DNA of 64,000 nt, from the NCBI GenBank assembly GCA_963920705.1, contig OY987237.1:5424601-5488600 (forward strand), in the 5' to 3' direction. Within the stretch, counting starts at the first letter, position 1. Every line of letters starts with the position of its first letter. Origin of the DNA: Odiellus spinosus. Its lineage: Eukaryota > Arthropoda > Arachnida > Opiliones > Phalangiidae. The position numbers were made by a program, and so were the translations under genes. Below are positions 4,291-52,637 of the stretch, piece by piece. The notes below the pieces were generated by a model, which saw only the letters and a program-made list of their open reading frames with translations, was not told the origin of the DNA and ran no database searches.

Positions 4291-4297
4291 CTTTTAT

Positions 4298-4634
4298 CAG
4301 AAGCCGATGAAACCCTCCCTTGAAGTCTACTACTCCAGTGTTCCATGTAGCGCTCCTCTCTGTATGGGTAAAATTCCCAATTTTACGAGTTAGAAGGGGT
4401 CCTACTTCATCCCCCCTGTCTACGGAAAATTGTAAATTCTCTCTCTCCACAAACGACGACGTTTTTTGGACGAACTCCAAGGCTGCTAGAGATATTCGCT
4501 CGATGAGCGACCGCTCCGAAAACATCTACCGTTAGGAGGCGTACAAATCGCGCCTTTTGAGAATAACCCATACAGAGAGGGGTAGACAAGACCCGGGAGT
4601 AATAGACTTCAAAGGAGGGTTTCATCGGCTTCTG
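4298..4634 (+). mobile_element. Foldback MITE with 7-bp target duplication, copy 1
   Basis: This 337-bp element starts CAGAAGCCGATGAAACCCTC and ends with the reverse complement. The terminal inverted repeat continues imperfectly for about 75 bp to a CTCTCTGTATGGGT motif on each side. It is flanked by an exact 7-bp direct repeat CTTTTAT (4291-4297 and 4635-4641), which defines both ends. Two more copies (39396 and 56554) each have their own 7-bp duplication. It has no coding capacity and is presumably mobilised in trans. The superfamily is unclear, since a 7-bp duplication fits few DNA transposon groups. Confidence 0.9.
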
Positions 4635-5178: not shown

Positions 5179-5397
5179 ACACTCTAGCCGCGTTCATACT
5201 AGGCCTTGGAATCGATTTAAACCCTTTAAAAACGTTTTGCTAGAGTCGTGTGAACGGGAAACCGTCTTTTTTTCGAATCGATTTCATTCGGTTTCTCGAA
5301 ACTGCTTCAGGAACCAGTTTCATTCCGATTGGGTTTCAACAACCGATAGATAAAGCTACAATAAATCGATTTATAAAGATTTATAAAGTAAACGTCT
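5179..5397 (+). mobile_element. Partial copy of a 300-bp MITE family
   Basis: The sequence from ACACTCTAGCC through CGTTCATACTAGGCCTTGG to AATCGATTTATAAAG is closely similar to the left two thirds of the element at 46428-46727. Shared motifs include ATCGATTTAAACC, AGTCGTGTGAAC, GGAAACCGTCTT, GAACCAGTTTCAT and CAACAACCGATAG. The right inverted terminus (CTAGTGTGACCGTAGCT) is missing, and the left terminus is degraded to a short match, so this is a truncated fossil copy. Confidence 0.7.
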
Positions 5398-6055: not shown

Positions 6056-7953
6056 CACACGGACCTGAGTCAGTACCTGGAACGACATCCGGGAGGTCTT
6101 CACCCAAAGAATGTCAAGTTGTTTCTCTTTCAATTACTAAGGGGTCTCGCCTTTTGCCACGAACGACGAGTTCTTCATCGGTATAGTCTCATTATTAAAA
6201 AAAAAAAAAAATAAAAAATGGGAACATAAACCGAAATTGTTTTCGACTCTCTACAGTGATCTCAAACCTCAGAATCTCTTGATCAGTGAAATGGGGGAGT
6301 TGAAACTCGCGGATTTTGGTCTTGCACGGGCGAAATCCGTTCCTAGTAGAACCTATTCGCACGAAGTGGTCACGTTGTGGTATCGACCACCCGATGTCTT
6401 GCTAGGGTCGACGGATTATTCCACGTCGCTCGATATGTGGTAAGAAATTGTGTATTTATTAATTGTAGAAAACCATTATGATATATTTATATTCGTTCTT
6501 TTTAAGGGGAGTTGGTTGCATATATGTGGAAATGGTCACGGGAGCGGCAGCCTTTCCCGGTGTTAAAGACACCAGTGACCAACTTGACAAAATTTGGAGG
6601 GTAAGATGTCAAACAAAACCTTCAGTGTGGCCAGATTATTGAATCCAGTGGTCACAGTATTTTCCACATGCAGTGCCATATAACGACAGGTCTAAGAACC
6701 TAGAAAAACCAAATTAAAGGTCCCTTAGGATCTAAAAGATCTAGATGAAAGAATGTGTATTTTTCCAATTTGTAGATTATATCAGATGTGCAGAGCAATT
6801 TAGTTTAATCACAACTATACAGGGTGTTTTGAAAATGGTGGTAGGACCGAGCTACAGTGGGTTCTAGGGGTCATTTTAAGACGAAAATGTTCTATGACGT
6901 TTTGTCGTACGGGGCGCCGTTTGAGAGTTAGGAAATGAATCTTGTGCTGATGACCCCTTAACGTACATTAATAAACGTGTACTCAATGAGCCTTTTATAA
7001 AACGCGCTCCTGATAGGTAAATAATTAAGCGTATTTTATCATTGATTACACGTTTATTAATGTACGTAAAGGGGTCATCCGGGCGTGATTCATTTCTTAA
7101 CTCTTTAACGACAAAACGTCATAGAACAATTTGGCCTTAAAATGACCCATGGAACCCACCCATTTTCGAAACGCCCTGTAATACACCCTGTATACAGAGT
7201 TACAATGTTTCGTAAGGTGAAATCCTCGAACTTATTATACGGACCACTATCTAGTTAGCTTTATTTTCACCCGAATTGTATTTAACCCTAACAACTAACC
7301 GACAGCCATTAACCATATCTTTAATATTGTAGGTACTTGGTACACCGACAGAAGACACTTGGAATGGTGTTTCCAAGTTTCCTAACTATCGATCAGGTAT
7401 TTTAAAAGCTTTAAATATCTGTATTTTCATCTTAATTTTAATTGTTGAATTTTTTTTTACTCTTGTAGACAAATTCTTTCACCACAAGCCTCAAGTAATC
7501 TCAACAGTTTTTCCCAGACTTTCCGAAATTACCTACGGAGAGAATCTAGCCACTAGTTTTTTACAAGTACGTTGACATCTTATTTGATGTAAAAATCCAC
7601 ATAGAATCAAATTTTAAATAATGACCAATCATATCTTTCGAAAATATATTGTAAAATGAAATCTTTTTCGATAATAGCTTCAGCCCAATAGGCGAATATC
7701 CGCCCAAATTGCGATACACCATCAATTTTTCGCAGACCTTCCACCGAAAATATACGACCTGCCAGATCGTAAGACTAATTTGAATTTTAATTTTTAATTA
7801 ACTCTTAAAAGTTTTTGTTCGTAATATTCTTTCGAAACGCTTATTTTTCAAATAGAAGCATCCATTTTCAACGTGCCTACTTGCAAACTAAGTCCAGAAA
7901 CCCACAACTACCCTCTGTCTGTGATCAAAGCCGCTGCCAAATTAAGACGCTGA
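6056..7953 (+). CDS. Cyclin-dependent kinase 14 / Eip63E-type (PFTAIRE) kinase, C-terminal exons
   Basis: Seven exons at 6056-6180, 6257-6439, 6507-6600, 7333-7396, 7469-7566, 7678-7768 and 7856-7953 join in phase with GT-AG junctions to encode 250 residues and a TGA stop. Visible motifs are HTDLSQYL (hinge side), the catalytic loop HRDLKPQN (residues 41-48), the DFG motif (61-63), the activation segment ending [15 protein letters not shown], the C-lobe WGVGC and [10 protein letters not shown]. The PPDVLLGS and ARAKSVPS wording is typical of the CDK14/CDK15 (PFTAIRE) group. In animals these membrane-associated, cyclin Y-dependent serine/threonine kinases act in Wnt co-receptor phosphorylation; Drosophila Eip63E is ecdysone-inducible and developmental. 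The glycine loop, the catalytic lysine and the PFTAIRE helix are absent, so the gene is 5' partial here. Introns are 67-111 bp except the fourth junction (732 bp), which holds a MITE. Nothing in the exons looks broken. Confidence 0.93.
6820..7178. mobile_element. TA-flanked MITE inside a kinase intron
   Basis: The element begins CAGGGTGTTTTGAAAATGG and ends CCATTTTCGAAACGCCCTG. The internal arms are also inverted (GGGGTCATTTTAAG against CTTAAAATGACCC, and ATTAATAAACGTGT against ACACGTTTATTAAT). TA is present on both sides (6818-6819 and 7179-7180), as expected for Tc1/mariner-type insertion. It accounts for about half of the 732-bp intron 6601-7332; the other introns of the gene are 67-111 bp. 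A second ACACCCTGTATA motif lies directly to the right (7182-7193), perhaps the end of another copy. Confidence 0.8.
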
Positions 7954-9480: not shown

Positions 9481-11950
9481 TCTTCTGAAAATGGCGTGTT
9501 ACATATTTTTTATGTGTCGAACCCTTTTATACACGAATCCCAAGACTGACATTATATTCCCTTAATGGATCTTTTCAATCAATTCCCGCAATTTATTCCA
9601 TTCAAAAAATTGCAAAATTACCTTATCGCGACGCCACCATATAGATGGAATTTTTATCAGACTATAATTGAAATTTTAATCTTTTTAATCGATCAGCTCA
9701 AAATAAAAATACAAAGATAACGAACCATTTCTTAAATTAGTTGGGAAAGTTTAAATAAAAATCATTTTACGCAAATTGAAACGTGGGGAAAAAAAACTAA
9801 ATTTCCAACTATATTTACGACATACCCAAAAAGGTGACGTAGATATGGAACCCCAAAAAGTCATCCACATTGGTCTTAAATAACGACCCAAGTATATGAA
9901 CAATTAAGTCTCGCGATAGAATACAATTTGTTTTGTCACAAAAATTGGGCTAAAAGGAAACTACGAGCTAAAAATGGAACAGCTTTTGAATTTGGATTAG
10001 ATTTGAACTCCAAAAACATGTCCAATAATTATTTGAAACTTCTTGAATACTTTTTGGGGGAAATCTGTTTAATTTTTAACTCATATTTTTCCTTTAAATC
10101 AATTAATTTAATTTCGAGATTAAAGAAAAGTTTTTAATTTGGATTTAAAAACTGTTCTTAAAATTTAATTATAATTTATTTCTGTAAAACTTGTAAATAT
10201 GGTATATTTATGAAATGTCAAGGGAGCTATTGAGTTCAAGAAAATGAAGCATTTTTAGTTTAGGTGATCGTGGTCTTTTTTAAACAAGAAATAGAAAAAT
10301 GGAAAATGGGTTTTAATCAATGGTGCTTTTTTTATGGAAGAATTAAACCTTATTTAATTTTTCTTTTTTGGTATTTCTGGGTAGATATTTCTACTACCAG
10401 GAGTTAAAAGTTAATAAGAAACTTGCCAGGGGTATTGTCAAGGTGAAAGGTCCATTAGTAAGAACTCTTGTGCATTGGCTTTGAGTTCCAAAATGGTAAT
10501 AGGTGGCGTGTTGAACCGACAACTGAATAGATGACAGTCAGTCACATCAATACTGCACATAGTACTTCTTCTGGTGCCACTGCCATCTATCCAGTTGAAA
10601 TTGAAATGGTGGCGCTCTGGAAATCAAGGCCCAATTCCAAACGTGGCTTGGCAGAGTCTACTTAACCAACATTGCCTGGAAAGGGTTGGTTGGATGTGGT
10701 CAGCTCACCTCGATTTATTTTGAGCGCGTTGATTGGCCACACTGACAAAGCGACAAAGCGACTCTCCTGCCTGATTTCTGATTTACTATTAGTTTCTGCT
10801 ACTACCTCATATATTAATAGACATTATGAATATATAATTAGATTAAAACTATCATATTTTGGGCGAAGCGGGAATGGTACTGTTTGTCTTTGATATGTCT
10901 TTTTACGTATCATTTACCGTAAAAAATCTAGTTTTATATATTTTCTGCCTCTTAAAATATTTAAATGGGAAACATTATAGCAAAATTGATCTTAGTAATT
11001 AACGGATAAATTTTGTTTCTTAGTGTGTAATAATATATACTGAAACGAAATTTTTATCCTTAATATTATATTCTTACTCTTAAAATTTGACTTCTCGTCA
11101 TTGCAAACTTAAATTCGTTATAAATACTTCATTTTTATTATTTTTATAAATTAATTCTGAATTGCTTTAAATTTTCCCTTTAAAATATAAACTTTCTCAA
11201 ATTTAATTCTGAAAAATAATGTCTGTGATTAATTTTTATCGTTGTACCCGTCCTAATCTATGGTTCCTTTTTTTCCCCGAGTTAAAACGTTACGATTTAT
11301 GTGTATTTGTTTTAGCAACGAATGATAATCTTCTTAATATATCTTAGTCATATCTCGTGAAATAAGCATTCCTTGAAAATAATGTTTTGGGGCTTTTTAT
11401 TTTAGTTTTTATGATGAAATACGGTGGGGTTTTTTTATACTATAATAATAAATATTTACAAGACACCGAAAACCACCATTTTGTCAAAATTTTCAAAATT
11501 ATCCCATTTTCTCTAAAAACCCAGGTGCCACATTTTTATAGTGTAACTATAAATGAAATCAACATTAAATTTTTACTATTACAATGAAAATAAAACAAAA
11601 AAAAAACCAACAATAATGGGAAACTGCACTCTTCGAAGCATTTAAAATAATCTACTTAAATAGTAAAGAAAACGATGGTTTTAAACAAAGCGAATTTATT
11701 TTGCATTATGTTTCTTAGTAATTGTTTAACGTCAAAACATTTTGATTTAGAAAAGAGCTTAATTTCCTTGTATAATTTAATATACTTTATTAGATGATAA
11801 TTACCATGTTATTTGAATATTTATAGTAGTATTAAAGAAACATGTCCGAAGTATAAATTGTTTCATATTTTATTCGCAATGTATCGAAGTTTTTTCAAAG
11901 TTTTAGAAATCGAATAAGCCCATGTATTTTTTATAATTGCAGAATAATGC
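9481..11950. other. No recognisable gene
   Basis: AT-rich spacer. Its only identifiable content is the SINE-tail fragment at 10741-10807. Short open frames (for example 9928-10137) have no recognisable domain. Confidence 0.5.
10741..10807 (+). repeat. Fragment of a SINE-like element
   Basis: The segment GACTCTCCTGCCTGATTTCT followed by GATTTACTATTAGTTTCTG matches, with few changes, the 3' body of the tRNA-headed element at 32800-32965. The tRNA-like head is not recognisable here. Confidence 0.5.
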
Positions 11951-13243
11951 AAGGGGTTTAATTTTTCAAGGGGTTTAATTTTTCAAGGGGTTTAATTTTT
12001 CAAGGGGTTTAATTTTTCAAGGGGTTTAATTTTTCAAGGGCTTTAATTTTTCAAGGGGTTTAATTTTTCAAGGGGTTTAATTTTTCAAGGGGTTTAATTT
12101 TTCAAGGGGTTTAATTTTTCAAGGGGTTTAATTTTTCAAGGGGTTTAATTTTTCAAGGGGTTTAATTTTTCAAGGGGTTTAATTTTTCAAGGGGTTTAAT
12201 TTTTCAAGGGGTTTAATTTTTCAAGGGGTTTAATTTTTCAAGGGGTTTAATTTTTCAAGGGGTTTAATTTTTCAAGGGGTTTAATTTTTCAAGGGGTTTA
12301 ATTTTTCAAGGGGTTTAATTTTTCAAGGGGTGTAATTTTTCAAGGGGTGTAATTTTTCAAGGGGTGTAATTTTTCAAGGGGTGTAATTTTTCAAGGGGTG
12401 TAATTTTTCAAGGGGTGTAATTTTTCAAGGGGTGTAATTTTTCAAGGGGTGAAATCTTTCAAGGGGTGTAATTTTTCAAGGGGTGTAATTTTTCAAGGGG
12501 TGTAATTTTTCAAGGGGTGTAATTTTTCAAGGGGTGTAATTTTTCAAGGGGTGTAATTTTTCAAGGGGTGTAATTTTTCAAGGGGTGTAATTCTTCAAGG
12601 GGTGTACTTTTTCAAGGGGTGTACTTTTTCAAGGGGTGTAATTTTTCAAGGGGTGTAATTTTTCAAGGGGTGTAATTTTTCAAGGGGTGTAATTTTTCAA
12701 GGGGTGTAATTTTTCAAGGGGTGTAATTTTTCAAGGGGTGTAATTTTTCAAGGGGTGTAATTTTTCAAGGGGAGTAATTTTTCAAGGGGTGTAATTTTTC
12801 AAGGGGTGTTATTCTTCAAGGGGTGTTATTTTTCAAGGGGTGTTATTTTTCAAGGGGTGTTATTTTTCAAGGGGTGTTATTTTTCAAGGGGTGTTATTTT
12901 TCAAGGGGTGTTATTTTTCAAGGGGTGTAATTTTTCAAGGGGTGTAATTTTTCAAGGGGTGTTATTTTTCAAGGGGTGTTATTTTTCAAGGGGTGTAATT
13001 TTTCAAGGGGTGTAATTTTTCAAGGGGTGTAATTTTTCAAGGGGTGTAATTTTTCAAGGGGTGTAATTTTTCAAGGAGTGTAATTTTTCAAGGAGTGTAA
13101 TTTTTCAAGGGGTATAATTTTTCAAGGGGTGTAATGTTTCAATAGGTGTAATGTTTCAAGGGTTGTCATTTTCCAAGTAGTGTAATTTTTCAATGGGTTT
13201 AATTTTTCAAGGGGTGTAAGTTATCAACTGGTGTAATTTGCAC
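11951..13243 (+). repeat. 17-bp satellite, about 76 units
   Basis: The unit is AAGGGGTTTAATTTTTC at the left end. At about 12330 the consensus changes to AAGGGGTGTAATTTTTC and at about 12806-12930 to AAGGGGTGTTATTTTTC. Units become more divergent after about 13070 (AAGGAGTGTAA and others). The changes come in runs of neighbouring units, as expected from local amplification. It is the left-most block of the composite satellite. Confidence 0.97.
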
Positions 13244-13387
13244 CCCCCTTGTAAAAAAATTGAAAAAAATTGATTTTTTTACAACTGGTACCCCTTGAAA
13301 AAAAAATGGAAAACGAACGAAAAAAATTTCAACGAACGAAAAAAATTTCAACGAACGAAAAACAATTTCAACGAAACGAAAAAAATT
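13244..13387 (+). repeat. Junction segment plus four 19-bp units
   Basis: After a C-rich junction (GCACCCCCCTTGTAAAAAAA) there is an A/T-rich stretch with ACAACTGGTACCCCTTG, which resembles the palindromic junction at 26536-26551 on the far side. It is followed by about four units of CAACGAACGAAAAAAATTT (13311-13387). Confidence 0.8.
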
Positions 13388-13585
13388 TCAATTTTTTCCA
13401 TCTCAATTTTTTTCCATCTCAATTTTTTTCCATCTCAATTTTTTTCCACCTCAATTTTTTTCCACCTCAATTTTTTTCCACCTCAATTTTTTTCCACCTC
13501 AATTTTTTTCCACCTCAATTTTTTTCCACCTCAATGTTTTTCCACCTCAATTTTTTTCCACCTCAATTTTTTTCCACCTCAATTT
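13388..13585 (+). repeat. 16-bp satellite block
   Basis: About 12 units of CTCAATTTTTTTCCAC. The first units carry CCAT in place of CCAC. The block passes smoothly into the 15-bp block that follows, with which it shares CTCAATTTT. Confidence 0.95.
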
Positions 13586-13756
13586 TCCCAATCTCAATTT
13601 TCCCAATCTCAACTTTCCCAATCTCAATTTTCCCAATCTCAATTTTCCCAATCTCAATTTTCCCAATCTCAATTTTCCCAATCTCAATTTTCCCAATCTC
13701 AATTTTCCCAATCTCAATTTTCCCAATCTCAATTTTCCCAATCTCAATTTTATATC
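13586..13756 (+). repeat. 15-bp satellite block
   Basis: About 11 units of CCCAATCTCAATTTT, nearly invariant apart from one CAACTTT variant. Because 15 is a multiple of three, it yields short repeated peptides in translation; there is no sign of a gene. Confidence 0.95.
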
Positions 13757-14379
13757 CTTTTTTTTACAGGGGGTGTATTTATTATTTATTTTTTTTTACA
13801 GGGGGTGTATTTATTATTTTTTTTTTACGGGGGGTGTATTTATCAATTATTTTTTTTACAGGGGGTGTATTTATTATTTTTTTTTTTACAGGGGGTGTAT
13901 TTATTATTTTTTTTTACAGGAGGTGTATTTATTATTTATTTTTTTACATGGGGTGTATTTATAATCTTTTTTTTTACAGGGGTGTATTTATTATTTTTTT
14001 ACAGGGGGTGTATTTATTTTTTTTTTTTTTTTACAGGGGGTGTATTTATTATTTATTTTTTTACAGGGGGTGTATTTATTATTTATTTTTTTACAGGGGG
14101 TGTATTTTATTTTTTTACAGGCGGTGTATTTATTTTTTATTTTTTTTACAGGGGGTGTATTTATTATTTATTTTTTTACAGGGGGTGTATTTATTTTTTT
14201 TTGCGGGGGTGTATTTATCAATTATTTTTTTTACAGGGGGTGTATTTATCAATTATTTTTTTTACAGGGGGTGTATTTATCAATTATTTTTTTACAGGGG
14301 GTTTATTTATCAATTATTTTTTTTACAGGGGGTGTATTTATCAATTATTTTTTACAGGGGGTGTATTTATCAATTATTT
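13757..14379 (+). repeat. About 30-bp satellite block (ACAGGGGGTGTATTTAT)
   Basis: Units consist of TTTTTTACAGGGGGTGTATT followed by TATTATTTA or TATCAATTA. The T tract varies in length, so the period is about 25-33 bp. The ACAGGGGGTGTATTTAT core is the same as in the 32-bp block further right. Confidence 0.95.
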
Positions 14380-15236
14380 CAAAAAAGGGGCGGTTTATTT
14401 TCAAAAAAGGGGTGTTTCATTTTCAAAAAAGGGGTGTTTTATTTTCAAAAAAGGGGTGTTTTATTCTCAAAAAAGGGGTGTTTTATTTTCAAAAATTGGT
14501 GGTTCATTTACAAAAAAGGTGTTTTATTTTCAAAAAAAGGGGTCTTTTATTTTAAAAAAAGGGGTGTTTTATTTTCCAAAAAGAGGTGTTTTATTTTCAA
14601 AAAAGGTGTTTTATTTTCAAAAAAGGGATGTTTTATTTTCAAAAAAGGGGTGTTTTATATTCAAAAAAGGGGTGTTTTATTTTCAAAAAAGGGGTGTTTT
14701 ATTTTCAAAGAAGGGGTGTTTTATTTTCAAAAAAGGGGTGTTTTATTTTCAAAAAAGGGGTGTTTTATTTTCAAAAAAGGGGTGTTTTATTTTCAAAAAA
14801 GGGGTGTTTTATTTTCAAAAAAGGGGTGTTTTATTTTCAAAAAAGGGGTGTTTTATTTTCAAAAAAAGGGTGTTTTATTTTCAATAAAGGGGTGTTTTAT
14901 TTTCAATAAAGGGGTGTTTTATTTTCAATAAAGGGGTGTTTTATTTTCAAAAAAGGGGTGTTTTATTTTCAAAAAAGGGGTGTTTTATTTTCAAAAAAGG
15001 GGTGTTTTATTTTCAAAAAAGGGGTGTTTTATTTTCAAAAAAGGGGTGTTTTATTTTCAAAAAAGGGGTGTTTTATTTTCAAAAAAGGGGTGTTTTATTT
15101 TCAAAAAAAGGAGTGTTTTATTTTCAAAAAAGGAGTGTTTTATTTTCAAAAAAGGGGTGTTTTATTTTCAAAAAAGGGGTGTTTTATTTTCAAAAAAGGG
15201 GTGTTTTATTTTCAAAAAAGGGGTGTTTTATTTTCA
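14380..15236 (+). repeat. 22-bp satellite block
   Basis: About 39 units made of GGGGTGTTTTATTTTC plus AAAAAA. Single-base changes (AAGGAGTG, TCAATAAAGG) are shared by neighbouring units. It carries the same GGGGTGT core as the adjacent blocks. Confidence 0.95.
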
Positions 15237-15350
15237 AAGGGTGTTTTATTTTCAAAGGGTGTTTTATTTTCAAAGGGTGTTTTATTTTCAAAGGGTGTTT
15301 TATTTTCAAAGGGTGTTTTATTTTCAAAGGGTGTTTTATTTTCAAAGGGT
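15237..15350 (+). repeat. 18-bp satellite block
   Basis: Six to seven units of AAAGGGTGTTTTATTTTC. This is the preceding 22-bp unit shortened by four bases, and it was probably produced by one deletion and then amplified. Confidence 0.93.
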
Positions 15351-15664
15351 GTTTTTATTATTTATTATTTACAGGGGGTGTATTTATTATTTATTTTTTA
15401 CAGGGGGTGTATTTATTATTTATTTTTTTTTACAGGGGGTGTATTTATTATTTATTTTTTTACAGGGGGTGTACTTATTATTTATTTTTTTACAGGGTGT
15501 ATTTATTTATTTTTTTTTTACAGGGGGTGTATTTATTATTTTTTTACAGGGGGTGTATTTATTATTTCTTTTTTTTACTGGGGGTGTATTTATTATTTAT
15601 TTTTTTTACAGGGGGTTATTTATTTATTTTTTTTACAGGGGGTGTATTTATTATTTTTTTTTTC
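15351..15664 (+). repeat. Second block of about 30-bp units
   Basis: This is the same ACAGGGGGTGTATTTATTAT plus T-tract unit seen at 13757-14379, so the two ~30-bp blocks enclose the 22- and 18-bp blocks. Confidence 0.93.
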
Positions 15665-16623
15665 AGGGGGTGTATTTATCGGTCGGTCGTTTTTACAGGG
15701 GGTGTATTTATCGGTCGGTCGTTTTTACAGGGGGTGTATTTATCGGTCGGTCGTTTTTACAGGGGGTGTATTTATCGGTCGGTCGTTTTTACAGGGGGTG
15801 TATTTATCGGTCGGTCGTTTTTACAGGGGGTGAATTTAACGATCGGTCGTTTTTACAGGGGGTGTATTTATCGGTCGGTCGTTTTTACAGGGGGTGTATT
15901 TATCGGTCGGTCGTTTTTACAGGGGGTGTATTTATCGATCGGTCGTTTTTACAGGGGGTGTATTTATCGATCGGTCGTTTTTACAGGGGGTGTATTTATC
16001 GATCGGTCGTTTTTACAGGGGGTATATTTATCGATCGGTCGTTTTTACAGGGGGTGTATTTATCGGTCGGTCGTTTTTACAGGGGGTGTACTTATCGGTC
16101 GGTCGTTTTTACAGGGGGTGTATTTATCGGTCGGTCGTTTTTACAGGGGGTGTATTTATCGGTCGGTCGTTTTTACAGGGGGTGTATTTATCGGTCGGTC
16201 GTTTTTACAGGGGGTGTATTTATCGGTCGGTCGTTTTTACAGGGGGTGTATTTATCGGTCGGTCGTTTTTACAGGGGGTGTGTTTATCGGTCGGTCGTTT
16301 TTACAGGGGGTGTATTTATCGGTCGGTCGTTTTTACAAGGGGTGTATTTATCGGTCGGTCGTTTTTACTGCGGGTGTATTTATCGGTCGGTCGTTTTTAC
16401 AGGGGGTGTATTTATCGATAGGTCGTTTTTACAGGGGGTGTATTTATCGATATGTCGTTTTTACAGGGGGTGTATTTATCGATCGGTCGTTTTTACAGGG
16501 GGTGTATTTATCGATTGGTCGTTTTTACACGGGGTGTATTTATCGTTCGGTCATTTTTACAGGGGGTGTATTTATCGATCGGTCGTTTTTACAGGGGGTG
16601 TATTTATCGATCGGTCGTTTTTA
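15665..16623 (+). repeat. 32-bp satellite, left arm, about 30 units
   Basis: Each unit is ACAGGGGGTGTATTTATC followed by GGTCGGTCGTTTTT or GATCGGTCGTTTTT. The GGTCGGTCG form dominates the outer part and GATCGGTCG the units nearest the inversion point. Because 32 is not a multiple of three and the unit has no stop in any frame in this orientation, all three frames stay open for hundreds of codons; these frames are not genes. Confidence 0.97.
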
Positions 16624-16702
16624 CAGGGGGTGTAAAAACGACCGATCGATAAATACACCCCCTGTAAAAACGACCGATCGATAAATACACCCCCTGTAAA
16701 AA
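16554..16702. repeat. Inversion centre of the 32-bp satellite (palindrome)
   Basis: The left arm 16554-16623 and the right arm 16633-16702 are perfect reverse complements over 70 bp, separated by the 9-base loop CAGGGGGTG (16624-16632). The first mismatch is the pair 16553/16703. Beyond it the arms still match as satellite, but the order of variant units differs on the two sides. Confidence 0.95.
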
Positions 16703-16707
16703 CGACC

Positions 16708-17963
16708 AATCGATAAATACACCCCCTGTAAAAACGACCGATCGATAAATACACCCCCTGCAAAAACGACCGATCGATAAATACACCCCCTGTAAAAACG
16801 ACCGACCGATAAATACATCCCCTGTAAAAACGACCGATCGATAAAAACACCCCCTGTAAAAACGACCGATCGATAAATACACCCCCTGTAAAAACGACCG
16901 ACCGATAAATACACCCCCTGTAAAAACGACCGACCGATAAATACACCCCCTGTAAAAACGACCGACCGATAAATACACCCCCTGTAAAAACGACCGACCG
17001 ATAAATACACCCCCTGTAAATACGACCGACCGATAAATACACCCCCTGTAAAACGACCGACCGATAAATACACCCCCTGTAAAAACGACCGACCGATAAA
17101 TACACCCCCTGTAAAAACGACCGACCGATAAATAAACCCCATGTAAAAACGATCGACCGATAAATAAACCCCATGTAAAAACGATCGACCGATAAATACA
17201 CCCCCTGTAAAAACGACCGACCGATAAATACACCCCCTGTAAAAACGACTGACCGATAAATACACCCCCTGTAAAAACGACCGATCGATAAATAAACCCC
17301 CTGTAAAAACGACCGATCGATAAATACACCCCCTGTAAAAACGACCGATCGATAAAAACACCCCCTGTAAAAACGACCGATCGATAAATACACCCCCTGT
17401 AAAAACGACCAATCGATAAATACACCCCCTGTAAAAACGACCGATCGATAAATACACCCCCTGCAAAAACGACCGATCGATAAATACACCCCCTGTAAAA
17501 ACGACCGACCGATAAATACACCCCCTGTAAAAACGACCGATCGATAAAAACACCCCCTGTAAAAACGACCGATCGATAAATACACCCCCTGTAAAAACGA
17601 CCGACCGATAAATACACCCCCTGTAAAAACGACCGACCGATAAATACACCCCCTGTAAAAACGACCGACCGATAAATACACCCCCTGTAAAAACGACCGA
17701 CCGATAAATACACCCCCTGTAAATACGACCGACCGATAAATACACCCCCTGTAAAACGACCGACCGATAAATACACCCCCTGTAAAAACGACCGACCGAT
17801 AAATACACCCCCTGTAAAAACGACCGACCGATAAATAAACCCCATGTAAAAACGATCGACCGATAAATAAACCCCATGTAAAAACGATCGACCGATAAAT
17901 ACACCCCCTGTAAAAACGACCGACCGATAAATACACCCCCTGTAAAAACGACTGACCGATAAA
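16708..17963 (-). repeat. Two copies of a 703-bp higher-order repeat
   Basis: Several rare variants recur exactly 703 bp apart: GACCAATCG (16708 and 17411), CTGCAAAAAC (16761 and 17464), two AAACCCCATG units (17131 and 17834) and CGACTGACC (17250 and 17953). This is 22 satellite units minus one base, because of a TGTAAAACG single-base deletion carried by both copies. Confidence 0.9.
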
Positions 17964-20900
17964 TACACCCCCTGTAAAAACGACCGACCGATAAATACAC
18001 CCCCTGTAAAAACGACCGATCGATAAATACACCCCCTGTAAAAACTACCGATCGATAAATACACCCCCTGTAAAAACGACCGATCGATAAATACACCCCC
18101 TGTAAAAACGACCGATCGATAAATACACCCCCTGTAAAACGACCGAACGATAAATACACCCCCTGTAAAAACGACCGATCGATAAATACACCACCTGTAA
18201 AAACGACCGATCGATAAATACACCCCCTGTAAAAACGACCGATCGATAAATACACCCCCTGTAAAAACGACCGATGATAAATACACCCCCTGTAAAAACG
18301 ACCGATCGATAAATACACCCCCTGTAAAAACGACCGATCGATAAATACACCCCCTGTAAAAACGACCGATCGATAAATACACCCCCTGTAAAAACGACCG
18401 ATCGATAAATACACCCCCTGTAAAAACGACCGATCGATAAATACACCCCCTGTAAAAACGACCGATCGATAAATACACCCCCTGTAAAAACGACCGATCG
18501 ATAAATACACCCCCTGTAAAAACGACCGATCGATAAATACACCCCCTGTAAAAACGACCGATCGATAAATACACCCCCTGTAAAAACGACCGATCGATAA
18601 ATACACCCCCTGTAAAAACGACCGATCGATAAATACACCCCCTGTAAAAACGACCGATCGATAAATACACCCCTGTAAAAACGACCGATCGATAAATACA
18701 CCCCCTGTAAAAACGACCGAACGATAAATACACCCCCTGTAAAAACGACCGATCGATAAATACACCCCCTGTAAAAACGACCGATCGATAAATACACCCC
18801 CTGTAAAAACGACCGATCGATAAATACACCCCACTGTAAAAACGACCGATCGATAAATACACCTCCTGTAAAAACGACCGATCGATAAATACACCCCCTG
18901 TAAAAACCGACCGATCGATAAATACACCCCACTGTAAAAAACGACCGATCGATAAATACACCCCCTGTAAAAACGACCGATCGATAAATACACCCCCTGT
19001 AAAAACGACCGATCGATAAATACACCCCCTGTAAAAACGACCGATCGATAAATACACCCCCTGTAAAAACGACCGATCGATAAATACACCCCCTGTAAAA
19101 ACGACCGATCGATAAATACACCCCCTGTAAAAACGACCGATCGATAAATACACCCCCTGTAAAAACGACCGATCGATAAATACACCCCCTGTAAAAACGA
19201 CCGATCGATAAATACACCCCTGTAAAAACGACCGATCGATAAATACACCCCCTGTAAAAACGACCGATCGATAAATACACCCCCTGTAAAAACGACCGAT
19301 CGATAAATACACCCCCTGTAAAAACGACCGATCGATAAATACACCCCCTGTAAAAACGACCGATCGATAAATACACCCCACTGTAAAAACGACCGATCGA
19401 TAAATACACCCCCTGTAAAAACGACCGATCGATAAATACACCCCCTGTAAAAACCGACCGATCGATAAATACACCCCACTGTAAAAACGACCGATCGATA
19501 AATACACCCCCTGTAAAAACGACCGATCGATAAATACACCCCCTGTAAAAACGACCGATCGATAAATACACCCCCTGTAAAAACGACCGATCGATAAATA
19601 CACCCCCTGTAAAAACGACCGATCGATAAATACACCCCCTGTAAAAACGACCGATCGATAAATACACCCCCTGTAAAAACGACCGATCGATAAATACACC
19701 CCCTGTAAAAACGACCGATCGATAAATACACCCCCTGTAAAAACGACCGATCGATAAATACACCCCCTGTAAAAACGACCGATCGATAAATACACCCCCT
19801 GTAAAAACGACCGATCGATAAATACACCCCCTGTAAAAACGACCGATCGATAAATACACCCCCTGTAAAAACGACCGAACGATAAATACACCCCCTGTAA
19901 AAACGACCGATCGATAAATACACCCCCTGTAAAAACGACCGATCGATAAATACACCCCCTGTAAAAACGACCGATCGATAGATACACCCCCTGTAAAAAC
20001 GACCGATCGATAAATACACCCCCTGTAAAAACGACCGATCGATAAATACACCCCCTGTAAAAACGACCGATCGATAAATACACCCCCTGTAAAAACGACC
20101 GATCGATAAATACACCCCCTGTAAAAACGACCGATCGATAAATACACCCCCTGTAAAAACGACCGATCGATAAATACACCCCCTGTAAAAACGACCGATC
20201 GATAAATACACCCCCTGTAAAAACGACCGATCGATAAATACACCCCCTGTAAAAACGACCGATCGATAAATACACCCCTGTAAAAACGACCGATCGATAA
20301 ATACACCCCTGTAAAAACGACCGATCGATAAATACACCCCCCTGAAAAACGACCGAACGATAAATACACCCCCTGTAAAAACAACCGATCGATAAATACA
20401 CCCCCTGTAAAAACGACCGATCGATAAATACACCCCCTGTAAAAACGACCGATCGATAAATACACCCCCTGTAAAAACGACCGATCGATAAATACACCCC
20501 CTGTAAAAACGACCGATCGATAAATACACCCCCTGTAAAAACGACCGAACGATAAATACACCCCCTGTAAAAACGACCGATCGATAAATACACCCCCTGT
20601 AAAAACGACCGAACGATAAATACACCCCCTGTAAAAACGACCGATCGATAAATACACCCCCTGTAAAAACGACCGATCGATAAATACACCCCCTGTAAAA
20701 ACGACCGATCGATAAATACACCCCCTGTAAAAACGACCGATCGATAAATACACCCCCTGTAAAAACGACCGATCGATAAATACACCCCCTGTAAAAACGA
20801 CCGATCGATAAATACACCCCTGTAAAAACGACCGATCGATAAATACACCCCCTGAAAAAACGACCGATCGATAAATACACCCCCTGTAAAAACGACCGAT

Positions 20901-22681
20901 CGATAAATACACCCCCTGTAAAAACGACCGATCGATAAATACACCCCCTGTAAAAACGACCGATCGATAAATACACCCCTGTAAAAACGACCGATCGATA
21001 AATACACCCCCTGTAAAAACGACCGATCGATAAATACACCCCACTGTAAAAACGACCGATCGATAAATACACCTCCTGTAAAAACGACCGATCGATAAAT
21101 ACACCCCCTGTAAAAACGACCGATCGATAAATACACCCCACTGTAAAAACGACCGATCGATAAATACACCCCCTGTAAAAACGACCGATCGATAAATACA
21201 CCCCCTGTAAAAACAACCGATCGATAAATACACCACCTGTAAAAACGACCCATCGATAAATACACCCCCTGTAAAAACGACCGATCGATAAATACACCCC
21301 AGTAAAAACGACCGATCGATAAATACACCCCACTGTAAAAACGACCGATCGATAAATACACCCCCTGTAAAAACGACCGATCGATAAATACACCCCCTGT
21401 AAAAACGACCGATCGATAAATACACCCCCTGTAAAAACGACCGATCGATAAATACACCCCCTGTAAAAACGACCGATCGATAAATACACCCCCTGTAAAA
21501 ACGACCGATCGATAAATTCACCCCCTGTAAAAACGACCGATCGATAAATACACCCCCTGTAAAAACGACCGATCGATAAATACACCCCCTGTAAAAACGA
21601 CCGATCGATAAATACTCCCCCTGTAAAAACGACCGATCGATAAATACACCCCTGTAAAAACGACCGATCGATAAATACACCCCTGTAAAAACGACCGATC
21701 GATAAATACACCCCACTGTAAAAACGACCGATCGATAAATACACCCCCTGTAAAAACGACCGATCGATAAATACACCCCCTGTAAAAACGACCGATCGAT
21801 AAATACACCCCACTGTAAAAACGACCGATCGATAAATACACCCCCTGTAAAAACGACCGATCGATAAATACACCCCCTGTAAAAACGACCGATCGATAAA
21901 TACACCCCCTTTAAAAACGACCGATCGATAAATACACCCCCTTTAAAAACGACCGATCGATAAATACACCCCCTTTAAAAACGACCGATCGATAAATACA
22001 CCACCTGTAAAAACTACCGATCGATAAATACACCCCCTGTAAAAACGACCGATCGATAAATACACCCCCTGTAAAAACGACCGATCGATAAATACACCCC
22101 ACTGTAAAAACGACCGATCGATAAATACACCCTCTGTAAAAATGACCGATCGATAAATACACCCCCTGTAAAAACGACCGATCGATAAATACACCCCCTG
22201 TAAAAACGACCGAACGATAAATACACCCCCTGTAAAAACGACCGAACGATAAATACACCCCCTGTAAAAACGACCGATCGATAAATACACCCCCTGTAAA
22301 AACGACCGATCGATAAATACACCCCCTGTAAAAACGACCGATCGATAGATACACCCCCTGTAAAAACGACCGATCGATAAATACACCCCCTGTAAAAACG
22401 ACCGATCGATAAATACACCCCCTGTAAAAACGACCGATCGATAAATACACCCCCTGTAAAAACGACCGATCGATAAATACACCCCCTGTAAAAACGACCG
22501 ATCGATAAATACTCCCCCTGTAAAAACGACCGATCGATAAATACACCCCTGTAAAAACGACCGATCGATAAATACACCCCCTGTAAAAACGACCGATCGA
22601 TAAATACACCCCCTGTAAAAACGACCGATCGATAAATACACCCCCTGTAAAAACGACCGATCGATAAATACACCCCCTGTA

Positions 22682-22736
22682 AACTAGTAAATTTTTTAGA
22701 GAGTATCGTAATCACTCTCTAAAAAATTTACTAGTT
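22682..22736. repeat. Hairpin insert in the 32-bp array, copy 1
   Basis: A perfect 23-bp inverted repeat (arm AACTAGTAAATTTTTTAGAG plus AGT) has a 9-base loop ATCGTAATC. A unique 36-bp tail follows to about 22772, and then the satellite resumes with CCCCCTGT. The sequence is unrelated to the satellite units around it. Confidence 0.93.
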
Positions 22737-23677
22737 AAATAATTCCGTGGCCACTATGTTTAATATTTATGACCCCCTGTAAAAACGACCGATCGATAAA
22801 TACACCCCCTGTAAAAACGACCGATCGATAAATACACCCCCTGAAAAAACGACCGATCGATAAATACACCCCCTGTAAAAACGACCGATCGATAAATACA
22901 CCCCCTGTAAAAACGACCGATCGATAAATACTCCCCCTGTAAAAACGACCGATCGATAAATACACCCCTGTAAAAACGACCGATCGATAAATACACCCCC
23001 TGTAAAAACGACCGATCGATAAATACACCCCACTGTAAAAACGACCGATCGATAAATACACCTCCTGTAAAAACGACCGATCGATAAATACACCCCCTGT
23101 AAAAACGACCGATCGATAAATACACCCCACTGTAAAAACGACCGATCGATAAATACACCCCCTGTAAAAACGACCGATCGATAAATACACCCCCTGTAAA
23201 AACGACCAATCGATAAATACACCCCCTTTAAAAACGACCGATCGATAAATACACCCCCTTTAAAAACGACCGATCGATAAATACACCCCCTTTAAAAACG
23301 ACCGATCGATAAATACACCCCCTGTAAAAACTACCGATCGATAAATACACCCCCTGTAAAAACGACCGATCGATAAATACACCCCCTGTAAAAACGACCG
23401 ATCGATAAATACACCCCCTGTAAAAACGACCGATCGATAAATACACCCCCTGTAAAAACGACCGATCGATAAATACACCCCCTGTAAAAACGACCGATCG
23501 ATAAATACTCCCCCTGTAAAAACGACCGATCGATAAATACACCCCTGTAAAAACGACCGATCGATAAATACACCCCCTGTAAAAACGACCGATCGATAAA
23601 TACACCCCCTGTAAAAACGACCGATCGATAAATACACCCCCTGTAAAAACGACCGATCGATAAATACACCCCCTGTA

Positions 23678-23732
23678 AACTAGTAAATTTTTTAGAGAGT
23701 ATCGTAATCACTCTCTAAAAAATTTACTAGTT
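23678..23732. repeat. Hairpin insert in the 32-bp array, copy 2
   Basis: An identical copy of the hairpin and its tail, exactly 996 bp to the right. It was most probably carried by a higher-order duplication of the surrounding satellite and not inserted independently, because the flanking units also match. Confidence 0.93.
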
Positions 23733-25700
23733 AAATAATTCCGTGGCCACTATGTTTAATATTTATGACCCCCTGTAAAAACGACCGATCGATAAATACA
23801 CCCCCTGTAAAAACGACCGATCGATAAATACACCCCCTGAAAAAACGACCGATCGATAAATACACCCCCTGTAAAAACGACCGATCGATAAATACACCCC
23901 CTGTAAAAACGACCGATCGATAAATACTCCCCCTGTAAAAACGACCGATCGATAAATACTCCCCCTGTAAAAACGACCGATCGATAAATACACCCCTGTA
24001 AAAACGACCGATCGATAAATACACCCCCTGTAAAAACGACCGATCGATAAATACACCCCACTGTAAAAACGACCGATCGATAAATACACCTCCTGTAAAA
24101 ACGACCGATCGATAAATACACCCCCTGTAAAAACGACCGATCGATAAATACACCCCACTGTAAAAACGACCGATCGATAAATACACCCCCTGTAAAAACG
24201 ACCGATCGATAAATACACCCCCTGTAAAAACGACCAATCGATAAATACACCCCCTTTAAAAACGACCGATCGATAAATACACCCCCTTTAAAAACGACCG
24301 ATCGATAAATACACCCCCTTTAAAAACGACCGATCGATAAATACACCCCCTGTAAAAACTACCGATCGATAAATACACCCCCTGTAAAAACGACCGATCG
24401 ATAAATACACCCCCTGTAAAAACGACCGATCGATAAATACACCCCCTGTAAAAACGACCGATCGATAAATACACCCCCTGTAAAAACGACCGAACGATAA
24501 ATACACCCCCTGTAAAAACGACCGATCGATAAATACACCCCCTGTAAAAACGACCGATCGATAAATACACCCCCTGTAAAAACGACCGATCGATAAATAC
24601 ACCCCCTGTAAAAACGACCGATCGATAAATACACCCCCTGTAAAAACGACCGATCGATAAATACACCCCCTGTAAAAACGACCGATCGATAAATACACCC
24701 CCCTGTAAAAACGACCGATCGATAAATACACCCCCTGTAAAAACGAGCGAACGATAAATACACCCCCTGTAAAAACGACCGATCGATAAATACACCCCCT
24801 GTTAAAACGACCGATCGATAAATACATCCCCTGTAAAAACGACCGATCGATAAATACACCTTCTGTAAAAACGACCGATCGATAAATACACCCCCTGTAA
24901 AAACGACCGATCGATAAATACACCCCACTGTAAAAACGACCGATCGATAAATACACCCCCTGTAAAAACGACCGATCGATAAATACACCCCCTGTAAAAA
25001 CGACCAATCGATAAATACACCCCCTTTAAAAACGACCGATCGATAAATACACCCCCTTTAAAAACGACCGATCGATAAATACACCCCCTTTAAAAACGAC
25101 CGATCGATAAATACACCCCCTGTAAAAACTACCGATCGATAAATACACCCCCTGTAAAAACGACCGATCGATAAATACACCCCCTGTAAAAACGACCGAT
25201 CGATAAATACACCCCCTGTAAAAACGACCGATCGATAAATACACCCCCTGTAAAAACGACCGAACGATAAATACACCCCCTGTAAAAACGACCGATCGAT
25301 AAATACACCCTATGTAAAAACGACCGATCGATAAATACACCCCCTGTAAAAACGACCGATCGATAAATACACCCCCTGTAAAAACGACCGATCGATAAAT
25401 ACACCCCCTGTAAAAACGACCGATCGATAAATACACCCCCTGTAAAAACGACCGATCGATAAATACACCCCCTGTAAAAACGACCGATCGATAAATACAC
25501 CCCCTGTAAAAACGACCGAACGATAAATACACCCCCTGTAAAAACGACCGATCGATAAATACACCCCCTGTTAAAACGACCGATCGATAAATACATCCCC
25601 TGTAAAAACGACCGATCGATAAATACACCCCCTGTAAAAACGACCGATCGATAAATACACCCCCTGTAAAAACGACCGATCGATAAATACACCCCCTGTA

Positions 25701-25975
25701 AAAAAATGAATAATAAGTACACCCCCTGTAAAAAAAATAAATAATAAATACACCCCCTGTAAAAAAATAATAATAAATACACCCCCTGTAAAAAAAAAAT
25801 AATAAATACACCCCCTGTAAAAAAAAATAATAAATACACCCCCTGTAAAAAAAAAATAATAAATACACCCCCTGTAAAAAAAAAATAATAAATACACCCC
25901 CTGTAAAAAAAATAAATAATAAATACACCCCCTGTAAAAAAAAATAAATAATAAATACACCCCCTGTAAAAAAAT
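25701..25975 (-). repeat. About 30-bp satellite block, right arm
   Basis: Units of AATAAATACACCCCCTGTAA plus an A tract. They are the reverse complement of the ~30-bp blocks at 13757-14379 and 15351-15664, which makes them the mirror-image neighbour of the 32-bp array. Confidence 0.93.
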
Positions 25976-26028
25976 TGATGGAAAATTGAGATTGGGAAAA
26001 TTGAAATTGGAAAAATTGAGATTGGAAA
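25976..26028 (-). repeat. Short 15-bp block, right arm
   Basis: Three units of the type GAAAATTGAGATTGG. The reverse complement matches the CCCAATCTCAATTTT block at 13586-13756, so this is the mirror image of that block reduced to three units. Confidence 0.85.
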
Positions 26029-26512
26029 ATAAATAAAACACCCCTTGAAAATAAAAACACCCCTTGAAAATAAATAAAACACCCCTTGAAAATAAATAAA
26101 ACACCTATTGAAAATAAATAAAACACCCCTTGAAAATAAATAAAACACCCCTTGAAAGTAAATAAAACACCCCTAGAAAGTAAATAAAACACCCCTTGAA
26201 AGTAAATAAAACACCCCTTGAAAGTAAATAAAACACCCCTTGAAAATAAATAAAACACCCCTTGAAAAGTAATAAAACACCCCTTGAAAAGTAATAAAAC
26301 ACCCCTTGAAAAGTAATAAAACACCCCTTGAAAAGTAATAAAACACCCCTTGAAAAGTAATAAAACACCCCTTGAAAAGTAATAAAACACCCCTTGAAAA
26401 GTAATAAAACACCCCTTGAAAAGTAATAAAACACCCCTTGAAAATAAATAAAACACCCGTTGAAAATAAATAAAACAGCCCTTTAAAATAAGTAAAACAG
26501 CCATTGAAAGGG
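26029..26512 (-). repeat. 22-bp satellite block, right arm
   Basis: About 22 units of CACCCCTTGAAAATAAATAA plus AA, with a CCTTGAAAAGTAATAA variant amplified in the middle (26270-26440). It is related in reverse orientation to the GGGGTGTTTTATTTTC block of the left arm. Confidence 0.94.
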
Positions 26513-26580
26513 ATAATAATTGATTTTTTTTTTTACAAGGGGTACCCCTTGGAAAAAAAATTGAAATTTTTAAAAAATAA
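26513..26580. repeat. Junction segment with 16-bp palindrome
   Basis: T- and A-tracts surround the perfect palindrome CAAGGGGTACCCCTTG (26536-26551). A related GGTACCCCTTG lies in the junction at 13288-13300 on the left arm. Confidence 0.8.
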
Positions 26581-26821
26581 ATAATAAATACACCCCCTGA
26601 AAAAAAAATTAATACACCCCCTGAAAAAAAAAATTAATTAAACACCCCCTGTAAAAAAAAATAAATACACCCCCTGTAAAAAAAATAAATAATAAATACA
26701 CCCCCGTAAAAAAAATAATAATAAATACACCCCCGGTAAAAAATAAATAATAAATACACCCCCTGTAAAAAAAAAATTATAAATACACCCCCTGTAAAAA
26801 AATATTAATAAATTCACCCAC

Positions 26822-26867
<46 letters not shown>

Positions 26868-27066
26868 CCCCCTGTAAAAAAAATAATAAATACACCCCCT
26901 GTAAAAAAAATAATAAATACACCCCCTGTAAAAAAATACATAATAAATACACCCCTCTAAAAAAAATAATAAATACATCCCATGCAAAAACAATAATAAA
27001 TACACCCCATGCAAAAAAAAAAAAAAATAATAAATACACCCCCTATAAAAAACAAATAATAAATAC
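26581..27066 (-). repeat. Outer ~30-bp satellite block, right arm
   Basis: Irregular units of ATAAATACACCCCCTGTAAA with variable A tracts, including an A run of about 36 nt near 26827-26863. Units are more divergent (CATCCCATGC, CCCCCGGTA) than those of the inner block. This ends the composite satellite. Confidence 0.92.
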
Positions 27067-28661
27067 ACATTTAGGTCTAAATAAAAGAGTAATTGAATCG
27101 TAAAACTTACGTCACGCGCGCTTGGGCACTTTCCGTTTTTTTTTACAATTCTTGAAAAGAAAATCACGTGTTGACGCGAGACGAGACCCGAATTGAGATA
27201 AGTTGCATGTGTACTTTAAGCTTTGCACGAGCTTCAAATTTAGAGTGGATCAGTAAATATTTTACTACCGTACGAAGTAAAAACATATTTCGCCCATAAA
27301 TTTTTTTGGGACCTTTTTTGCTGTCGGCCTTCGGCAATCTAATTTGGCAAATAATGAATAACATTGAGTAGCCACGCAATAAGTGCAAGCATTATATTTT
27401 TACAGCGAATGAAATAGAGACTAGAAATTGATAAATCAATAAAGTTTTTTCACACGCTTAGTTTTTGAATAATTTATTGGGCGCTTCAGTAATTGTTTAC
27501 ATTTTTCAATCTGAATTTCATTATAAAAAAAGCTATCTATTTTTTCAAGATTTTCAAAATCTGAATCATTTCGGAAAATGTTTAGAGTAAATAATATAAC
27601 TAAAATATAAACCTCCCGTAAAATTACATTAATCCATGTAATGAACGTAACACGATCATAGCGAATAGAAACGGGAGTTCTACCTTAATTGTTTTTACAA
27701 GAAACGTAGCTATAATCCTATTAACAAACTGGATAATGTCGGGATAACCCAAGAGAGAACTAGACTTCTTCCCTCCCAATTAACAATGGACACTTATCTC
27801 AATTACAAACCATGCCGTTTATATAAGCTTCCTCTAGAGAGATCTAATAACGATGAGCTTATCGAGCTGTTTGCTTTGTCGAAAATTTAATACAGACATG
27901 TTGCGCCATCTCTGACACGGGGATAATGCTGGGGAAAAGTTTGGTTACGAGAAATAAGGCGGGGGCACGGATCTAATTAAATAGGAGGGGGTGGTCAAAT
28001 TTTGTAGCCTGTAGATCCGAGTTATTTATAAGCCAATTTACTAGTCTTGTTAAATTGTCAATGGTTATGGACCAGTTTATTTTTAATCCAGGCAAGCGGG
28101 GTCGCGGATCATAGGTCCACTTTAAACAAATTCTTATTTCTCATTCTGTTTTTAACCAGGGCTGGAAATAAGAATTTTATTCCATCACGGGAAACATATT
28201 CGCGTGTTTTTACGCTCGCGCTCGTGTCAAATTGTTATTCAAACTAAAATTTAGGCTTAGCCCAAATTTGGCCATTTCTTTAAATTTTCATCATTCGCCG
28301 TTTGGTTTACTAAATTAGCCGATTATAGTTTGTTAATTCACCTCCTCCTGCGACCCGTTAAGGTGAAACAGCGAGTTTTTGCTTCATCTCTAGCAAAATA
28401 ATAGGGAGATATATTTATATATTATATCTATTAAGATAAGTGGCCATTGTAAATAGTCCTAGCGTCTCCTTTTTTTTTCTATTCTCTATATGCATGGATT
28501 AATAAAAAAGATAGTGAGGGATAGAGTGGGAAAAGAACAACGTTATAGTGTTCATTTTCACACTTTCTCGCCAGATGGATTGAATGCTAATCTCTATTTT
28601 AAAGGCCGGTTGAATCAATCATTTAACCCATTTTATCGCCGATTACAAAAACACCCTAATA
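27067..28661. other. No recognisable gene
   Basis: Unique AT-rich sequence. Short open frames at 27164-27388 (-), 28047-28247 (+) and 28490-28696 (+) have no recognisable domain, and I see no RNA gene. Confidence 0.5.
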
Positions 28662-37900: not shown

Positions 37901-37988
37901 CCGGTTCAACGACTCATTGAGCTGGTTCAACGACTCATTGAGCTGGTTCAACGACTCATTGAGCTGGTTCAACGACTCATTGAGCTGG
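34984..37988 (+). repeat. 21-bp satellite, exactly 143 units
   Basis: Each unit is GGTTCAACGACTCGTCGAGC plus C. The first 82 units are identical. The next 14 have CATCGAG, the next 43 have CATTGAG, and the last 4 also have GCT in place of the final GCC. I found no other change over 3,003 bp. Since 21 is a multiple of three and the unit lacks stops in most frames, open frames of 340-1027 codons appear on both strands. Their heptad-like peptides (VEPVQRL, NESLNRL) are a by-product; there is no flanking coding context to support a protein. Confidence 0.97.
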
Positions 37989-39395: not shown

Positions 39396-39729
39396 CAGAA
39401 GCCGATGAAACCCTCCTTTGAAGTCTATTACTCCGGGGTCTTGTCTATCCCTCTCTGTATGGGTTAGTTTCAAAAAGCGCGATTCGTACGCCTCCTAATG
39501 GTAGATATTTTCGGAGCGGGAGTTCGTCGAGCGAATATCTCTAGCAGCCTTGGAGTTCGTCAAAAAAAACATCGTCGTTTGTGGAGAGAATTATAAATTT
39601 TCCGTAGACAGGGGGTATGAAGTAGGACCCCTCCGATCTCGTAAAATTGGGAATTTTACCCATACAGAGAGGAGCGCTATATCGAACATTAGAGTAGTAG
39701 ACTTCAAAGGAGGGTTTCATCGGCTTCTG
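39396..39729 (-). mobile_element. Foldback MITE with 7-bp target duplication, copy 2
   Basis: This 334-bp element belongs to the same family as 4298-4634 but is inserted in the opposite orientation; the CCTACTTCATC...GTCTACGG interior appears as its reverse complement. It is flanked by an exact 7-bp duplication TTTTTAT (39389-39395 and 39730-39736). Both termini are intact. Confidence 0.9.
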
Positions 39730-49755: not shown

Positions 49756-49758
49756 TGG

Positions 49759-52634: not shown

Positions 52635-52637
52635 TGG

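Follow-up and report, generated by a model that had tools for sequence, protein, structure and literature searches.

A composite minisatellite cluster whose strand polarity flips at one main point

The 64,000-nucleotide stretch of contig OY987237.1 analyzed here (the window) contains no Ns and carries, at 11950-27068, a G-rich minisatellite cluster of ~15 kb whose units are interrelated. It is apparently flanked on both sides by the 3' ends of convergent genes, the gene on the right being uncertain. We regard it as a composite minisatellite of intergenic DNA that forms a small "macro-dyad", switching strand at one main point, and not as a recognized gene or mobile element. Tandem Repeats Finder returned periods of 17, 19, 15/16, 30, 22, and 32 bp within it, and an 18-bp period was seen as a spacing when the blocks were compared. 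These results agree with the periods of 15, 16, 17, 18, 22, ~30, and 32 bp listed in an initial annotation of the sequence, and add the 19-bp block. When the 17-, 18-, 22-, 30-, and 32-bp blocks are aligned on their common core, this core consists of three to five G followed by TGT, mostly GGGGTGT; in the outermost copies of the 17-bp block GGGGTTT replaces GGGGTGT. The blocks are listed in Table 1; the cluster repeat sequence is ACAGGGGGTGTATTTATCG and the centre sequence is TTTTTACAGGGGGTGTAAAAA.

Table 1. Blocks, linkers, and centre of the minisatellite cluster, in window positions. For the repeat blocks, strand is that of the G-rich sequence.
Feature	Position	Strand	Source
17-bp block CAAGGGGTGTAATTTTT, ~76 copies, left arm	11950-13239	+	Tandem Repeats Finder, sequence
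Left linker with local strand flips, a 12-bp inverted repeat (13249-13260/13273-13284), and ACAACTGGTACCCCTTG	13240-13311	.	
19-bp block, ~4 copies	13312-13391	+	Tandem Repeats Finder
16-bp then 15-bp block, CTCAATTTTTTTCCAC / CTCAATTTTCCCAAT	13388-13751	+	
Left outer 30-bp block	13759-14376	+	
Left 22-bp block TTTCAAAAAAGGGGTGTTTTAT, ending from ~15242 in an 18-bp version with GGGTGT	14377-15346	+	
Left inner 30-bp block	15347-15669	+	
Left 32-bp array, 30 units	15670-16625	+	
Centre GGGGG loop between 72-bp perfect inverted arms (16554-16625, 16631-16702)	16626-16630	.	
Right 32-bp array, ~279 units	16631-25699	-	
Centre-proximal part of the right array: two tandem 22-unit blocks (lag 703 bp), 27 ACCG-type units	16631-18004	-	
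Part of the right array with ~30-unit (1.0-kb) block repeats, the final one partial	22359-25699	-	
Right inner 30-bp block	25700-25975	-	
Right 15-bp block, ~3.5 copies	25976-26029	-	
Right 22-bp block, unit unlike the left 22-bp unit	26030-26509	-	
Right linker with palindrome CAAGGGGTACCCCTTG (26536-26551)	26510-26571	.	
Right outer 30-bp block	26572-27068	-	

The polarity of the core defines the switch. GGGGTGT lies on the plus strand at 127/127 sites up to and including the core of the centre itself, and on the minus strand at 293/293 sites beyond it, so that all 420 cores of the cluster keep one polarity per side, as in an array built of two opposite subarrays. Only 1 of the 421 GGGGTGT cores in the whole window falls outside the cluster. 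The looser GGGTGT gave the same picture: 136/136 on the plus strand in the left arm, 296 on the minus strand and one on the plus strand (the centre joint itself) in the right, and eight outside. A comparison of seven left with five right blocks, which left out the left 17-bp block and both linkers, found 12-, 16-, and 20-mers common to the two sides in inverted orientation only; same-strand counts were all 0. Together these counts bear out the asymmetric foldback with arms on opposite strands proposed in the initial annotation, and the centre that it placed at 16628 is the middle base of the GGGGG. The arms are of very different length, ~4.7 kb on the left and ~10.4 kb on the right. Segmentation into 32-bp units yielded 30 on the left and 276 segments on the right; the latter include three double units and two with an insert and correspond to ~279 units, in line with the 30 and 280 first estimated.

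The junction lies on the hairpin of the repeat unit

The exact flip reads TTTTTACA-GGGGG-TGTAAAAA, and the 72-bp arms around these five bases form the longest perfect inverted repeat found around the centre. As single-stranded DNA the centre folds into one hairpin of -89.6 kcal/mol, compared with -18.5 kcal/mol (standard deviation 2.9) for shuffled sequences. The TACA-GGGGG-TGTA at the junction is ordinary unit sequence: TACA-N5-TGTA is the sole inverted repeat of at least 4 bp with a loop of at most 12 nt in the consensus (ATCG-type) 32-bp unit, and unbroken copies of this 13-mer number 44 in the left arm and, as the reverse complement, 215 in the right. The junction palindrome is therefore centred on a pre-existing short inverted repeat, as a fold-back inversion would have it. 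As the consensus unit carries no other such repeat, a fold-back with a 4-bp stem and a 5-nt loop explains the junction. By our own estimate, with criteria set after the junction had been seen, an inverted joint of random phase would fall on TACA-N5-TGTA in about 1 of 32 phases, and we take this coincidence with the unit's own hairpin to be the informative part of the junction.

Passages of a study of fold-back inversions in yeast (PMC7467729) report hairpin stems from 4 bp up, with median loops of 4 nt in mre11 and 3 nt in sae2 mutants. The junction described here lies within these stems and within the short-loop class (<15 nt) of that study. Unlike it, the short-loop events reported there arose mainly in mre11 or sae2 mutants and are new rearrangements, whereas the present junction is diverged and embedded in a repeat array.

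Away from the junction the two arms diverge. Their identity is perfect over 72 bp and, without gaps, 95% over 320 bp; it is 86% over 500 bp. Written as strings of unit types, both arms begin with ATCG-type units, continue with an ACCG-type run (11 units on the left, 12 on the right), and return to ATCG-type units; the right arm yielded 27 ACCG-type units, all of them at 16804-17986. In the best centre-anchored alignment, which matched 22 left units to the right arm, 23/704 bases differed and two right units stayed unmatched, and each arm carried private variants.

Block duplications in the right arm

The right arm shows duplications of whole blocks of units. A 14-unit run that includes 13 variant units is found again 22 units (703 bp) away, and a 17-unit run that includes 10 variants is repeated 30 units (1028 bp) away. 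The copies at lag 22 differ at 1/576 bases over 18 units. Since the block copies are separated by 1/576 differences and the arms by 23/704, the block growth of the right arm seems to postdate the strand switch.

The right array also holds an insert with a perfect 23-bp inverted repeat, a 9-nt loop, and a further tail (22682-22772). A second copy, which the block duplication carried along, lies 996 bp further on (23678-23768), and arms of 22 bp are matched in both copies; the insert arm has no other copy in the window at up to three mismatches.

Origin of the dyad

We consider it probable that the dyad arose when the inner array was copied in inverted orientation from a hairpin primer and the two arms then evolved separately. 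The 32-bp array would expose a single-stranded 3' end, this end would fold on TACA-GGGGG-TGTA, and a strand ending in ...TACAGGGGGTGTA that folded and copied itself would give exactly the junction observed. Synthesis primed in this way, running back along the strand, would copy at least the inner 32/30-bp array in inverted orientation. Afterwards the arms would diverge, each through its own slippage and unequal exchange, with the right arm reaching ~9 times the left arm's number of 32-bp units, in part by duplicating 22- and ~30-unit blocks; loss from the left arm may also contribute to the asymmetry.

Several observations weigh against this account. The 72-bp perfect arms are in themselves unremarkable because the consensus unit is so common, making up 148/279 segments. 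According to the same passages on yeast (PMC7467729), MRE11- and SAE2-proficient strains have a median loop of 36 nt, so that the 5-nt loop proposed here belongs to a class normally suppressed in that organism. A mirror order of the unit variants was also not established. The anchored alignment had a cost of 29, which 57 of 244 start windows in the right arm (the anchored one included) equalled or beat, the best at 25. When the left units were rotated in either order (60 rotations), two reversed arrangements did better (27 and 28) and five others tied. In unit shuffles, 31/1000 reached a cost of 29; this was the only control leaning toward mirror order, but shuffles break up runs. Collinearity of the unit variants, convincing by eye from the common ACCG run and a common ACCAATCG unit, thus failed two of three controls.

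The outer blocks raise further difficulties. Outward from the centre the order is 32-30-18-22-30-15/16-19-linker-17 on the left and 32-30-15-22'-linker-30 on the right, which is no mirror of it, and the Tandem Repeats Finder list contains no 17-bp block in the right arm. The 22-bp units differ: against the left unit (Table 1), the right one reads AAGGGGTGTTTTATTTATTTTC on its G-rich strand, and the two have nine 12-mers, one 16-mer, and zero 20-mers in common. Each seems to extend an 18-bp-like unit in its own way, AAAA standing at one place and TTTA at another. The linkers contain small polarity changes of their own and align better in direct (score 66) than in inverted orientation (50), both scores exceeding those of all 300 mononucleotide shuffles (maxima 33 and 31, respectively).

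Both linkers contain single inverted unit-like pieces and palindromes with a GGTACC core, and their preference for direct orientation sets them apart from the other compared blocks.

Comparison of 2 kb of unique flank per side gave no significant inverted match, the best inverted pieces having an E value of 0.14; the best match overall was a 22-bp direct one (E 0.001).

The initial annotation had placed the reverse complements of the 15-, 22-, ~30-, and 32-bp blocks across the centre; the inverted-only shared words are in keeping with this, while the 22-bp units are not the same. A mirrored copy of the whole library, as it described, is not supported in view of the outer order, the 22-bp units, the lack of a listed right 17-bp block, the linkers, and the flanks. 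What remains of an inverted duplication followed by unequal expansion is the main switch, the hairpin junction, and the block duplication in the right arm. The statement that variant order near the centre differs between arms holds for single units but is incomplete, as both arms show the ATCG-type/ACCG-run/ATCG-type pattern and collinearity is not established. A mirrored duplication of 15 kb fits less well than either an inverted duplication of the inner 30/32-bp part or the inversion of a segment in an older array. The outer parts may have undergone rearrangements of their own; alternatively, the event may itself have been such an inversion.

A plain inversion, in which the right part of an older one-way array was turned around and nothing was duplicated, is a tentative alternative that we regard as rather unlikely. 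Such an array would perhaps already have consisted of two composite stretches, each with 30-, 22-, 15-, and 32-bp blocks. It would account for outer blocks that are related, yet ordered differently and built in part of different units, for a variant order near the centre that is not demonstrably mirrored, and for linkers that fit better in direct orientation. However, a plain inversion requires a second breakpoint at the outer edge, of which the 2-kb flank comparison gives no sign (itself weak evidence), and it requires that the joint fell by chance exactly on the unit's own hairpin.

That the cluster represents the remains of a Foldback-type transposon is quite improbable. Elements of this type (Drosophila FB, Galileo, Tetris) have long, internally repetitive terminal inverted repeats of unequal length. 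Asymmetric inverted arms of tandem repeats are typical of them, and passages of the description of Tetris (PMC4079207) report inverted arms of internal tandem repeats, variable arm length, and arms that seed satellite arrays, all reminiscent of the present cluster. According to the same passages, Tetris has target-site duplications of 8-10 bp as well as a terminal flanking and a middle domain; none of these was found here. Direct repeats from edge to edge were at most 6 bp long in the ranges scanned (AATAAT, TAATTG), with no target-site duplication of 8-10 bp; the longest inverted match between the ends was the 9-bp TTTTTTATA, so that matching terminal ends are lacking in these ranges as well. 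The outermost blocks are unlike each other (17-bp versus 30-bp), and only 5 bp separate the arms, which leaves no middle domain. Four unit cores, searched at up to three mismatches, gave just two single matches in the window outside the cluster.

An artefact of sequencing or assembly, either a fold-back read chimera or a misjoined array, is quite improbable too. Fold-back chimeras do yield this geometry, but a chimera would give long, nearly identical arms, and the decay of identity to 86% over 500 bp is not of that kind. The 23/704 differences, with private variants on both sides, would not result from a single molecule read twice, and the arms end in different blocks and in unmatched unique flanks. 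The initial annotation had already argued against a simple fold-back sequencing chimera, and the divergence of the arms speaks for that judgement.

There is very little to be said for an old head-to-head fusion of two telomere-like G-rich arrays: the orientation fits, with the G-rich strand running into the joint and the C-rich strand following, but the units are 15-32 bp long, the site lies between gene-like sequences, and a telomere origin was rejected on the count of zero runs of three for nine telomere motifs (TTAGG, TTAGGC, TTAGGG, and six others) on both strands of the window.

Relation to known satellite dyads

The nearest known description is that of the macro-dyad symmetries of satellite DNA in Tribolium madens, T. 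freemani, and T. castaneum. Passages of the 2026 paper on these beetles (PMC13081366) state that such symmetries have been documented exclusively in Tribolium. In those passages (PMC13081366), a tandem array changes strand with palindrome-like arms of several kb, related satellites are intermingled, units contain short inverted repeats (<10 bp), and arm lengths vary, all of which resembles the present cluster. The passages on T. madens (PMC13081366) differ in that the satellites derive from a ~110-bp element (with a 704-bp monomer for one of them) and make up multi-megabase regions that are likely (peri)centromeric and occur on all chromosomes; their inversion sites are conserved, and their arms tend to be equal. 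Here, by comparison, units of 15-32 bp occupy one 15-kb intergenic site, with one main switch seen and strong asymmetry.

A small dyad between genes, its centre resolved to the base and its joint on the unit's own hairpin, would let one ask how such dyads start. It also carries an internal clock in the divergence of block copies relative to that of the arms. If the host is not a Tribolium, the range of the phenomenon widens.

The sequences GGGGGTGTATTTAT and ATAAATACACCCCC were not found in the literature text searched. A cluster 19-mer had no exact match in contigs of prokaryote genomes, from which the window's own records were possibly left out, and the one exact match of a cluster 17-mer in viral contigs is, by our own estimate, expected by chance in that much sequence.

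Coding and hairpin-RNA potential

The G-rich strand is open in frames of up to 1773 aa. Long open frames arise over 13388-16625 (plus strand) and 16631-27068 (minus strand) from the 30-, 22-, 32-, and 15-bp units, with no other sign of coding, and we do not claim a protein product for the arrays. Of the five consensus units tested, those of 32, 30, 22, and 15 bp lack stop codons in every frame of the G-rich strand, and the 17-bp one does not. Mononucleotide shuffles are stop-free in 10% (32-bp), 2.6% (30-bp), 1.2% (22-bp), and 62% (15-bp) of cases, which makes the open frames of the 30- and 22-bp units somewhat unusual.

A 995-nt RNA spanning the centre is predicted to fold into one long hairpin of -901 kcal/mol, compared with -311 kcal/mol (standard deviation 9) for 20 shuffles, as expected of any true inverted repeat. 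We consider it very improbable that the dyad serves as a satellite-borne hairpin-RNA locus, in which hypothetical read-through from the CDK-like gene would feed a Dicer-type small interfering RNA (siRNA) pathway. The last recognized coding piece of that gene ends at ~7.8 kb on the plus strand, from where a transcript would cross the centre, and the resulting duplex would be nearly perfect over at least ~480 bp. If this were true, the siRNA could act either on this family of minisatellites or on the neighbouring gene pair's convergent transcription. Most likely the cluster has no function of its own, and the repeat's tendency to form hairpins gave rise to the dyad as a by-product.

Neighbouring genes and other repeats in the window

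To the left of the cluster, exon-like frames of a CDK14/16-type kinase lie at 6.06-7.79 kb on the plus strand. The frame at 6141-6440 has CDK16 as its best PDB match (E 3e-32) and matches Pfam Pkinase (8e-18), and CDK16 is also the best match of the frame at 6056-6211 (4e-10). Two weaker pieces fit the C-terminal lobe: 7333-7572 matches CDK3 (0.012), behind the better-scoring SAKe6FE and SAKe6AE, and 7678-7794 matches a CDK2/CDC28-like kinase (0.013) and CDK16 (0.08). To the right, two frames lie at 29.7-30.9 kb on the minus strand, one with sub-threshold Pfam matches to DUF753 (0.0017) and UPAR_LY6 (0.021) and the other with an unrelated weak match; by their cysteine pattern both are possibly Ly6-like. 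Beyond the masked arrays, 129 stop-to-stop open reading frames reach 60 aa or more, and the Pfam scan covered 10 of these. The position of the cluster between the CDK-like gene and the possible Ly6-like gene suggests gene-bearing DNA. In our own reading, the gene content points to an animal and probably to an insect. ARAGORN, run with the bacterial code, found no transfer RNA in the window, and no Rfam match reached the gathering score there.

Between the CDK-like exon frames, 6857-7159 matches its own reverse complement at 73% over ~300 bp and is possibly an intron hairpin element. A separate 21-bp minisatellite, GGTTCAACGACTCGTCGAGCC, occupies 34984-37985 in 143 copies with 99% matches; it is open in several frames and has a G+C content of ~60%, compared with ~35% in the region. 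A 2.88-kb tandem duplication with 99.6% identity (48410-51297 and 51297-54176) contains in each copy an AT-rich 26-bp minisatellite of ~38 copies. A dispersed repeat of ~340 bp is present at 4295-4634, 39396-39729, and 56551-56890, with copies 91-94% identical; its inverted ends of ~70 bp (~80% identity) mark it as possibly a small DNA transposon. Another dispersed repeat occurs at 5180-5378, 46437-46623, and 46738-46873, the copies being 84-86% identical and one of them reversed.

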